From a bacterium (GTDB lineage: Bacteria > SM23-31), in the NCBI GenBank assembly GCA_028278455.1, contig JANQEH010000249.1, positions 32,710-96,709 of the forward strand: a stretch of DNA of 64,000 nucleotides. The letters are read 5' to 3'. Each line of letters opens with the position of its first letter. Position 1 is the stretch's first letter. The translations under genes and the position numbers were made by a program. This document shows positions 24,946 through 28,790 of the stretch, one piece after another. The notes below the pieces were generated by a model, which was not told the DNA's origin, made no database searches, and worked only from the letters and a program-made list of their open reading frames with translations.

Positions 24946-26211
24946 TCATTTTGTACGTGATTCTATCGTAGCAAGGAGTTTTAGCAAAGCTCTACCGCAG
25001 ATATTCCATGATTTTTCCCCAAATCCATTGATACCGATCAAATCCTCCCTGGTTTGAGGTACATTCTGAACAATTTCTTTTAGAACTCTATCCCGGAATA
25101 CCATAAATGCCGGAAGATCAAGCTCTCTGGCTTTTGCTCTGCGCAGATCCCTTATCTGATCGATCAGTTCAAGATCTATTTCATCACCGGGAGCTATTTT
25201 CAATTTTTTTGGCAATTCGAGAGTTTTGACCCCGGAGAGATCGAACATTTTGCGGCCGGAAGGACTGATTGAGATTGTAGGATATATTCCCCTTGTCTGT
25301 CTCAGGATTTTATCGGCACAGAGTTTTTCCAGAATCTCTCTGATATTCTTTCTGCGGACATCTCTCATCAGTGCAAATGTTTTTGCCCTGTAAAGCATAT
25401 ATGACCTAACTGTCACTGAAAACGTTCCTCTCAAAATATCGCATATCGTGTTTTTACCGAATTTCTCCCTGGTTTCAGTAATGCATACCAGTATTGTTTT
25501 TATTTTCTCCTTATCATCTCCGCGTCCGGAAGCTCGAGAAAGCTTCTTCTTACATAAGTCACAATTACCACATTCAGGGTACTTACCTTTCCCGAAAAAA
25601 TATGACTTAAGATATTTAATTCTGCATCCGGCCCTGAAACAATAATCATAAACATATTTCAGGGCTTCTAATTTCTTCGTCAGATCGGTATCTGTACCTG
25701 CCGTTTCTTCTGCCAGGATCTTTCGTTTTATGTACATGTCTTGTTCATCATACAGCAGAAAATGGTATGCAGTTATAGGCTGGATCAAATATTTCGTCAA
25801 TATCCGGATCATGGAATCAAGTGAATCAGGTATAAATTCATGAATTATAAACCTGAACTGCATTTCGACCGGGAGTTCTCTGCAGCTTGATTCATCGGTA
25901 ATAAACAGCTTCACCCGGCTTTTAAACAAATTCTCGAGTGATCTTTGATTATCTTCAAGGATTGAATCTACTGTGAAAACAGAGCATTTTACATTCGAAT
26001 CGTCAAGCAGCTCTGCTAAATACCTCGATTGCTCTGGATCATGAGATATAAGCATTCCAGGACCGTTGAACGTTTTCGCAATCTTAATTATCTTCGCTTC
26101 TTTTTCGCTTCCCGGTGATACATAAAACCTGATATCTGAGCCGGGAAAAGACCGGATAGAAAGAGCGGTATTCACAGTTTGAGATTGTGACCTGAACCTG
26201 TAATTGCTCAA
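24946..26211 (-). CDS. Degenerate RecQ-like protein: remnant second helicase domain + Zn-binding + winged helix + HRDC
   Basis: YDYCFRAGCRIKYLKSYFFGKGKYPECGNCDLC, RQC-like region, HRDC (RRAKARELDLPAFMVFRDRVLKEIVQNVPQTREDLIGINGFGEKSWNICGRALL); no Walker A/DExH domain. Confidence 0.8.
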   Translation of the reverse strand: MSNYRFRSQSQTVNTALSIRSFPGSDIRFYVSPGSEKEAKIIKIAKTFNGPGMLISHDPEQSRYLAELLDDSNVKCSVFTVDSILEDNQRSLENLFKSRVKLFITDESSCRELPVEMQFRFIIHEFIPDSLDSMIRILTKYLIQPITAYHFLLYDEQDMYIKRKILAEETAGTDTDLTKKLEALKYVYDYCFRAGCRIKYLKSYFFGKGKYPECGNCDLCKKKLSRASGRGDDKEKIKTILVCITETREKFGKNTICDILRGTFSVTVRSYMLYRAKTFALMRDVRRKNIREILEKLCADKILRQTRGIYPTISISPSGRKMFDLSGVKTLELPKKLKIAPGDEIDLELIDQIRDLRRAKARELDLPAFMVFRDRVLKEIVQNVPQTREDLIGINGFGEKSWNICGRALLKLLATIESRTK

Positions 26212-26236: not shown

Positions 26237-26815
26237 CTACTCGATATTAAGGGCCTTTTTTATCTCTGAGATCACAGCATCATTCTTCAATAATTCACCT
26301 TTTGCACTCCATAGGATAGTCTTGTCTTTTCCGACAAGAAAGTAAGATCTAATTGCTATCTTCATCCTCCTGTTAAATACTCCATAATTCCTGATGACCG
26401 TCTGATCGGGGAAATCGCTTAAAAGCGGAAATGATGATAATTCCAGTTCTTCTGCAAAAGCCCTGTTTGCTGCTGGAGTGTCTGAACTAATTCCGAAAAT
26501 CTGAATTTCAAGATCCAGAAACCTCTGGATCTCCTCCTCGAAACCGGAGAGTTCCGAGCGTCAGCCTCCTGTAAACGCCATAGGATAAAATGCGAGAAGT
26601 ACCGGTCCTTTGTCTAAAGCTTTATACAAGGAAAACTCTCTTTTATCCGGTTCTGCATCAATAGAGCTCCCCCGAAGTGTAAAATCCGGGGCTGTTTCGC
26701 CTGCCTGAAGAAATGCCTGTTGTGCTTCCTGTGCTTCAGGAGTACCTCCTCTATCAGAACAAGCTGCTGTTAAAAGCAAAATAGACGCAAAGGTTAAACA
26801 TGTTGATCTCAGCAT
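26237..26815 (-). CDS. Lipoprotein AhpC/TSA-type peroxiredoxin, probable selenoprotein (in-frame TGA at peroxidatic Cys position)
   Basis: Lipobox LTAAC; APDFTLRG..., LLAFYPMAFTGG-[TGA]-RSELSGFEEEIQRFLDLEIQIFGISSDTPAANRAFAEELELSSFPLLSDFPDQTVIRNYGVFN...IRSYFLVGKDKTILWS...KALNIE-TAG. The ORF track stops at the TGA (26561). Confidence 0.85.
26512..26534 (-). promoter_or_regulatory. Candidate bacterial SECIS stem-loop
   Basis: Minus strand GATCCAGA-GGTT-TCTGGATC perfect 8-bp hairpin, loop 37 nt after the TGA; an overlapping proximal alternative is TCTCC-GGTTTCGAGGA-GGAGA, starting 10 nt after the TGA. Confidence 0.5.
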
Positions 26816-26872: not shown

Positions 26873-27670
26873 TTATTTGTACAGCTTTTTCTTCATCGAC
26901 AGGAACTTTTCAGCATTAGAAGTTAGGTCTTTGGCAGGGAGTGAAGCAATAATGGTTTTAGCATTATTTATCCTGTCTTCCGGCATGGGATGAGTAGAAA
27001 GCATCTTTTCCAGTGCCGATGGTTGTGTATTATGCAGGTTAGATAGTTTTTCGAAGAATGTTACAAGGCCGCTGGGATCATATCCTGCAGCATAAGAATA
27101 GTTCACACCGAGTCTGTCTGCTTCGAATTCATTTGATCTGCCGTACTTCAACATCCCGGCGCCTACTATAACGTCGGTAACCATTCTTTCAACCTGCCTG
27201 GTATCACCTCCAAGTGCCAACGCTATAACGAGTTGGTATCCATAGATACTCGTTAGTTTTTTCATTCCGTGTTTACCCACAACATGCCCGATTTCATGAG
27301 CAATTACACCGGCAACCTCCGCTTCATTATCCGCTTTCTTGAGAAGTCCCGAATAAAGGTATATGAATCCACCCGGCAGAGCGAATGCGTTCACAGTTGC
27401 TGAATCGTCAACGATTTTGAAAGAGTATTCGATATCCTGCCGATCGCATACACTTACCAGTTTGTTACCTACTTCACTGATATAATTCTGCCATTCCTCA
27501 TTATCAAGCAGAGTCAGCTGTTTTTCGATCTCTTTTGAAAACTCCTGCCCCATATTGACTTCCTGATCTGTGGAAAATATATTAGCGCCGCAGCTTATCA
27601 GGAATAACACAGGCAGAAACAGTACTGTATACAAGGATTTTACATTTCTTATGCATTCTGCAAATTTCAT
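26873..27670 (-). CDS. M48-family metalloprotease, lipoprotein
   Basis: VIAHEIGHVVGKHG (HExxH), EFEADRLGVNYSYAAGYDP; lipobox FLISC; ATG 27670 just after the PilZ gene stop. Confidence 0.92.
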   Translation of the reverse strand: MKFAECIRNVKSLYTVLFLPVLFLISCGANIFSTDQEVNMGQEFSKEIEKQLTLLDNEEWQNYISEVGNKLVSVCDRQDIEYSFKIVDDSATVNAFALPGGFIYLYSGLLKKADNEAEVAGVIAHEIGHVVGKHGMKKLTSIYGYQLVIALALGGDTRQVERMVTDVIVGAGMLKYGRSNEFEADRLGVNYSYAAGYDPSGLVTFFEKLSNLHNTQPSALEKMLSTHPMPEDRINNAKTIIASLPAKDLTSNAEKFLSMKKKLYK

Positions 27671-27671
27671 C

Positions 27672-28790
27672 TTACCTGGCTCCACCGTTATCTTTTTTCC
27701 AGTTTCTTTGAATATTAGATACATATTTAATTATCTCTTCCCTGTTCTGGTCAGAGACCATAATAAATTCAACAAAAATTTTATATCTTCGTTCCAAGTC
27801 TTTTACACGCACAATCCTGCCGAAAATATCCGTTAGTTTCTCTTTAGGCCTCAGAAGAAGCTCGATCCGGAGAATATCATCGGTTTCCAGGGATGGATTT
27901 TCAGTAAAGAATGAAATACCTCCACCGCTAATACTGACAACTGTACCGAGGAAATTTCCCGGCCTTGAAGTCCTTTTGAACACCTTATTTTCGATAAGCC
28001 CTTGCTTTTCTTCCGGATTGAGTTTATAAAATCTCCCGGTCAGTCTCGCATTTATCCTGTAAAAATGTCTTCTCTGTTTCCTGCTGATTTTGTTAGTATG
28101 TTCAAAAACGACAGTATGCTTGTCAATCTGATCTTTTACAGTAAGCGGAAACCTGTAACCGGCATCACCCTGTCTCCAGAAATAACCTTCGAATTTTTCC
28201 CCCTTTTGAAAAACGAAATGGAGATCTTTGTAGTCATCACTGATAAGAGTAAAATTCTCTGTCGTATTTTCTTCCACAAAGACATTTATATGTCTATTGC
28301 CGAATTCTGCAGGAATAGTGATCCTGATATTCTGCGCGTGTGGTATCGATCTTGTGGTTTTGATCTCATCTGAAGGATCAAAGTAGCGGTGAAAGAATTT
28401 TTCTCTGGTAGTCTCAAATGAATCCTGTGCCTCTTCCCTGTCAATTTCAGCATCCCATTGCTGAAAGGAAGCCATGAAATCCTTAACAAACCTGTCATAT
28501 TTCGAAACAGATTCTACTACACCTTGCGGAGTCTCCGGGGAATATTTCTGAGCAAGCCTGATTAACACTTCCGCCTCGAGATCCGATAGATCCCTTGCTT
28601 CCGCAAGTTTATTAAAGAGATACCATTCCCGTTGAAACCTTTGTTTTTTTCTTCTAAAATGGAGTATAATCTGAATTATAGAAACAATAATAACAATACA
28701 CAGTAAAACGATCCAGGAATAGAAAATCGTCTGCTGGCTAGGAGGTGTGATCCTGAAGAATTCTAATATGTATTTCCAGGAATCTTCCAT
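27672..28790 (-). CDS. PilZ domain-containing protein with N-terminal TM
   Basis: RKQRRHFYRINARLTGRFY ... GTVVSISGGGISFFTENPSLETDDILRIELLL (RxxxR / SxxG PilZ signatures). Confidence 0.85.
   Translation of the reverse strand: MEDSWKYILEFFRITPPSQQTIFYSWIVLLCIVIIVSIIQIILHFRRKKQRFQREWYLFNKLAEARDLSDLEAEVLIRLAQKYSPETPQGVVESVSKYDRFVKDFMASFQQWDAEIDREEAQDSFETTREKFFHRYFDPSDEIKTTRSIPHAQNIRITIPAEFGNRHINVFVEENTTENFTLISDDYKDLHFVFQKGEKFEGYFWRQGDAGYRFPLTVKDQIDKHTVVFEHTNKISRKQRRHFYRINARLTGRFYKLNPEEKQGLIENKVFKRTSRPGNFLGTVVSISGGGISFFTENPSLETDDILRIELLLRPKEKLTDIFGRIVRVKDLERRYKIFVEFIMVSDQNREEIIKYVSNIQRNWKKDNGGAR

Follow-up and report, generated by a model that had tools for sequence, protein, structure and literature searches.

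Results

A peroxiredoxin gene interrupted by TGA at its catalytic codon

The window, that is, the whole stretch of 64,000 nucleotides analysed here, carries on its minus strand a single 192-codon frame that holds one internal TGA and ends at a TAG (Table 1). Both flanking genes run in the same direction and encode an M48 metallopeptidase (upstream) and a RecQ C-terminal-type protein (downstream). In the latter, a protein of 421 aa, Pfam recognises no helicase ATPase domain, and its domain content suggests that it may have lost its motor. When the peroxiredoxin frame was re-read on the minus strand, the coordinates and read-through residues quoted in the initial annotation proved correct. Why would such a gene go unnoticed? 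Standard ORF calling yields an 84-residue fragment without the active site, and the gene is a clean example of how a catalytic residue is lost in this way. Among frames of at least 100 aa with exactly one internal TGA that are not covered by other long ORFs, the peroxiredoxin frame was the only convincing one in the window, the other match being a spurious 5′ extension.

Table 1. Coordinates of the gene, its predicted elements, its neighbours and related loci of the same genome (G000)
Feature	Position	Strand	Remarks
Predicted selenoprotein, whole CDS	26237..26815	-	192 residues plus stop, one in-frame TGA; ATG at 26815, TAG at 26239-26237; PF00578 E 8.5e-28, PF08534 E 1.1e-16
Predicted signal peptide, residues 1-18 (MLRSTCLTFASILLLTAA)	26762..26815	-	Kyte-Doolittle mean up to 2.28 over 11 residues; from motif
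Predicted lipobox Cys19 (LTAA|C), putative lipidation site	26759..26761	-	from sequence
Predicted Sec codon TGA, residue 85	26561..26563	-	peroxidatic Cys position of AhpE (AFTGG-U); Mtb AhpE alignment and 21 homologues
First hairpin past UGA, loop CUCC	26537..26558	-	11 nt from UGA; outside SECIS constraints
Candidate bacterial SECIS hairpin, GAGAUCCAGA-GGUU-UCUGGAUCUU	26510..26533	-	10 bp stem, apical loop 37 nt past UGA, -13.6 kcal/mol
M48 metallopeptidase, upstream, co-directional	26873..27724	-	PF01435 E 5.7e-36; lipobox-like N-terminus (LFLISC)
RecQ C-terminal-type protein, downstream, co-directional	24946..26211	-	RecQ zinc-binding, RQC and HRDC domains
tRNA-Sec, anticodon UCA	C123:3898-3991		adjoins selB and selA
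selB	C123:4068-5993		with selA, L074:4068-7404
selA	C123:5965-7404
Second selA (C175) and second selB (C229)	L075:7476-8894, L076:4048-5661
PrxQ-like peroxiredoxin (NNTPG-U)	L002:1495-1938 (C91)		TGA at catalytic position
AhpC-like peroxiredoxin (FTFV-U)	L004:1402-2121 (C40)		TGA at catalytic position

The joined frame encodes an AhpE-like peroxiredoxin

Read through the TGA, the frame matches the AhpC/TSA domain PF00578 over residues 39-168 with 97.2 bits against a gathering threshold of 26, and the domain spans both sides of the TGA. The best sequence match in the PDB is AhpE of Mycobacterium tuberculosis (E 1.7e-15), in whose alignment the TGA pairs with the peroxidatic Cys (FYPMAFTGG-U in the query, FFPLAFTGI-C in AhpE). 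The initial annotation had placed the end of the 84-residue ORF exactly at the catalytic Cys of AhpC/TSA proteins, and this alignment, that of the homologues and the fold match all bear it out. In an alignment of 22 sequences (the window protein and 21 homologues), with TGA read as Cys, residue 85 is invariant, as are P78 and R156, and T82 is nearly so; the P-x-x-x-T-x-x-C/U loop and the conserved Arg of the family are thus present. An AlphaFold model built from the homologue alignment, again with TGA read as Cys, reached a mean pLDDT of 88.1 and a pTM of 0.81, and Foldseek placed the AhpE structures 4xih and 4x0x among its top PDB matches, with a TM score of about 0.90 normalised to the target.

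Cysteine occurs in the read-through protein only at residue 6, in the hydrophobic leader of the predicted signal peptide, and at residue 19, in the lipobox. The earlier statement that the mature chain has no Cys besides that of the lipobox therefore stands, Cys6 lying within the signal peptide, with the refinement that the lipobox has T at -3 (L-T-A-A-C). The protein is closest to AhpE and its mature chain is without a resolving Cys, as in AhpE-type 1-Cys enzymes, with a weak subfamily placement on the tree. Against the PrxU equivalog NF040737 it scores 46.4 bits, below the curated cut-off of 270. It falls outside the curated PrxU family and is an AhpE-like Sec peroxiredoxin.

Homologues carry TGA or a Cys codon at the same position

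The same codon is TGA in seven metagenome-assembled genomes of Chloroflexota/Dehalococcoidia (L005-L010, L012) and in other bacteria (for example L032, L033, L101 and L106), while it is TGT in one Chloroflexota relative (L011) and TGC or TGT in other homologues. Homologues read through this TGA or carry Cys there, and they do not terminate at it. Chance does not account for the frame: read as one, it matches PF00578, and this codon is TGA or TGC/TGT in independent homologues. Codon differences after the TGA between close Chloroflexota pairs are mostly synonymous (synonymous to non-synonymous 18:6, 25:7, 23:7 and 26:5), and therefore that part is translated and under selection in those relatives. 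No homologue of the lipobox Sec peroxiredoxin gene was found in its own class, the same genus included, so selection on the gene itself is not directly measurable.

A tree of 69 domains requires nine switches between the Sec and Cys labels, three or more of them on well-supported branches, and the swap has therefore recurred. The window protein forms a long isolated branch whose placement is weakly supported. Some peroxiredoxin matches contain a TAG, which we considered as a UAG-coded Sec and rejected: in all three examined (L094, L099 and L117) the TAG lies upstream of the gene.

The genome encodes selenocysteine machinery

Within the window, Rfam at its gathering threshold gave no match and ARAGORN found no tRNA, so we turned to the whole genome for the Sec machinery (G000; 76% complete, 318 contigs, 5.28 Mb). 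The initial annotation had proposed looking there for selA, selB, selC and selD. A tRNA-Sec with anticodon UCA, two selA and two selB genes were found, and Pfam confirms SelA and the SelB domains in both copies of each, but selD was not found in the assembled 76%. The selD model gave just two weak matches, of ThiL and PurM type, which were rejected: they fall below the cut-off, and the ThiL gene adjoins ThiD. In four of the five other genomes of the class, selD is present with an in-frame TGA near its N-terminus, the usual place (CAG-U-AS and similar), and the gene order is selA-selB-selD in the sister genome G002 (contig C164) and in G004 (C100). In G000, the contig with the second selA (C175) overlaps that with the second selB (C229) by exactly 24 bases, and C229 ends inside selB at the spot where the sister genomes place selD next. 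We infer that the missing selD lies just past the end of C229. The gap is explicable, because relatives in the class have selD and C229 breaks off before the expected gene.

The two selA-selB sets of G000 are diverged, with SelA 45% and SelB 39% identical between them. One set resembles that of G001 (51% in SelB) and the other the selA-selB-selD sets of G002/G004 (70/62%). Because the sister G002 also holds both selB types (C62, L073; C164, L080), the two sets look like a trait of the lineage and not like contamination. Photobacterium profundum 3TCK has been reported to carry two complete sel operons (PMC5330540). G000 carries two further peroxiredoxins with a TGA at the catalytic position, one PrxQ-like and one AhpC-like (Table 1); the latter is without the usual C-terminal resolving Cys (SEATPSGWKPG).

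A candidate SECIS hairpin lies downstream of the UGA

According to a 2026 review (PMC13188914), a bacterial SECIS has a loop of 3-9 nt with G in its first two positions, lies 16-37 nt from the UGA and reaches -7.5 kcal/mol or lower. The hairpin closest to the UGA was rejected, since its CUCC loop is without G and only 11 nt away. The candidate hairpin in Table 1 lies within all four limits, with a spacing exactly at the upper one. Among 2000 synonymous recodings, 18 (0.9%) were as good as the candidate and 256 (13%) passed the -7.5 threshold, and -13.6 was not reached at any of 49 control sites, which were placed at the stops of long frames in the window, whatever the stop codon. Nevertheless, the bSECIS scan misses several clear homologous Sec sites, and for this reason it discriminates weakly and carries little weight.

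The N-terminus resembles a lipoprotein leader

The N-terminus, MLRSTCLTFASILLLTAA|CSDRGG..., has one Arg, a hydrophobic stretch and small residues at -1 and -2 before Cys19; Ser stands at +2, and a run of about 16 residues, hydrophilic for the most part, extends to about residue 35 ahead of the domain. The features expected of a lipoprotein, namely a positive N-region, a hydrophobic stretch and a lipobox Cys, are all there; T at -3 is allowed by the general lipoprotein pattern and departs from the classic L-A-G-C. The hydrophobic N-terminus ending in LTAAC suggests a lipoprotein leader with a short tether, and the low confidence of residues 1-30 in the AlphaFold model (pLDDT 53-57) is consistent with a flexible one. 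Of the initial description as a lipoprotein peroxiredoxin, the enzyme class is borne out by domain, alignment and fold, while the lipoprotein part draws its support from this motif. No lipobox was seen in any other Sec homologue among the hits read as loci from some 470 genomes searched, a reading that may have passed over rarer cases. A Cys-containing PrxQ-like peroxiredoxin (L111, contig C220 of genome G399) was seen by eye to have a lipobox-like leader (AVWG|C), so peroxiredoxins may have become lipid-anchored elsewhere as well.

Discussion

The initial proposal of a probable selenoprotein is supported by the Sec machinery of the genome, by the TGA or Cys codons of homologues and by the alignment and fold match to AhpE. 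We regard it as very probable that this is a genuine selenoprotein gene whose product is an AhpE-like 1-Sec peroxiredoxin, with a predicted lipid anchor on Cys19 that would keep the exported protein in the cell envelope. In the model that we propose, SelB and the Sec-tRNA(UCA) would decode the UGA of codon 85 as selenocysteine, guided by the mRNA hairpin just downstream. The protein would then be exported and lipidated on Cys19, and a short flexible linker would hold the enzyme in the cell envelope. The P-x-x-x-T-x-x-U loop and the conserved Arg156 would activate the selenol of Sec85, which would reduce H2O2 or organic hydroperoxides and turn into a selenenic acid. Because the mature chain is without a resolving Cys, this acid would be recycled by an external thiol donor and not by a Cys of the same chain. 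The most likely role of the protein is thus that of a 1-Sec peroxidase anchored in the cell envelope.

Could the TGA have arisen recently as a nonsense mutation in the gene of a Cys peroxiredoxin, or be a sequencing error there? TGA is one base away from TGC and TGT, the source assembly is fragmented and selD is absent from it. However, the change would have had to fall on the catalytic codon of all codons, and in a genome that has tRNA-Sec, selA and selB, while the remainder of the frame stayed intact and conserved, and homologues from several lineages have TGA there independently; we hold an error or a pseudogene to be very unlikely. The frame would equally be open if the organism read TGA generally as an amino acid such as Trp, but 12 of the 47 long ORFs in the window end at TGA as an ordinary stop, which excludes a general reassignment of the code. 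Moreover, the sole UCA tRNA seen among the loci scanned is tRNA-Sec, and the residue of homologues at the TGA position is the redox-active one, so that the chance left to this explanation is negligible.

A different question is whether the selenoprotein is a lipoprotein. Its leader might be cut by signal peptidase I, or kept as a membrane anchor, leaving a periplasmic or membrane-embedded enzyme without lipid. The T at -3 of the lipobox would fit such a leader, as would the fact that every other exported Sec peroxiredoxin found has an SPase-I-like leader without a lipobox. Yet Cys19 ends the hydrophobic stretch exactly, small residues occupy -1 and -2, a flexible hydrophilic linker follows, and the adjoining M48 peptidase has a lipobox-like leader as well. 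We therefore consider the form without lipid unlikely, though deserving of some weight, and favour the lipidated one.

Lipidation would set the protein apart from known relatives. Knowledge of Sec peroxiredoxins with a TxxU motif dates back to 2001 (PrxU, as cited in PMC13188914), and marine data contain many of them (43 genes in PMC1088965; also PMC1794560). PrxU of Eubacterium acidaminophilum and the proteins of the Sargasso Sea and later surveys (PMC1088965, PMC1794560, PMC13188914) share with the window protein PF00578, the peroxidatic UGA and the P-x-x-x-T-x-x-U loop; the window protein differs from PrxU in its low equivalog score and its predicted export and lipidation leader. M. tuberculosis AhpE has the same FTG-C/U active site, likewise no resolving Cys and a close sequence and fold, but uses Cys in place of Sec, and the solved protein is without a signal peptide. 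The AhpE-like Sec peroxiredoxins of Chloroflexota/Dehalococcoidia have an identical active site (FYPMAFTGGU) and are 32-40% identical to the window protein, but they have no recognisable signal peptide, and the window protein sits with weak support on a long separate branch.

Known, then, are the kind of enzyme and the recoding of UGA; unusual is the predicted lipid-anchored location at the membrane. We found no mention of a lipoprotein form of Sec peroxiredoxin in PMC1088965, PMC1794560 or PMC13188914, and for most bacterial Sec peroxidases these papers do not mention export or anchoring. Nor did we find in the open-licence literature a paper that joins selenocysteine, selenoprotein and lipobox, which is weak evidence of absence. 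A membrane-tethered Sec peroxidase, if true, would place selenium in the peroxide defence of the envelope, beyond the reach of cytosolic reductants. A bolder reading, which we think improbable, is that the lipid-anchored 1-Sec peroxidase attacks lipid hydroperoxides at the surface of the membrane, as a bacterial functional counterpart of GPX4; in this reading the lineage that translates it maintains two diverged selA-selB sets whose SECIS preferences may differ. The candidate hairpin of the Sec peroxiredoxin mRNA has a GGUU loop at 37 nt, whereas three of four selD mRNAs of the class have a GGA loop at 20 nt.

Exported Sec peroxiredoxins elsewhere (L101; L106/L113; L057 and L085-L092) share a signal peptide and the peroxidatic UGA with the window protein, and differ in having SPase-I-like leaders (ALA|E, AFA|Q, YAYG|A) without a lipobox Cys. 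Those of L057 and L085-L092 are fusions of two peroxiredoxin domains with one in-frame TGA in each (FTGG-U, then FGRG-U or FTGG-U). By their leaders and reading frames they are predicted double-Sec periplasmic peroxiredoxins, and they occur in two families of one phylum (genomes G044, G079-G081, G089, G095, G100, G103 and G104).
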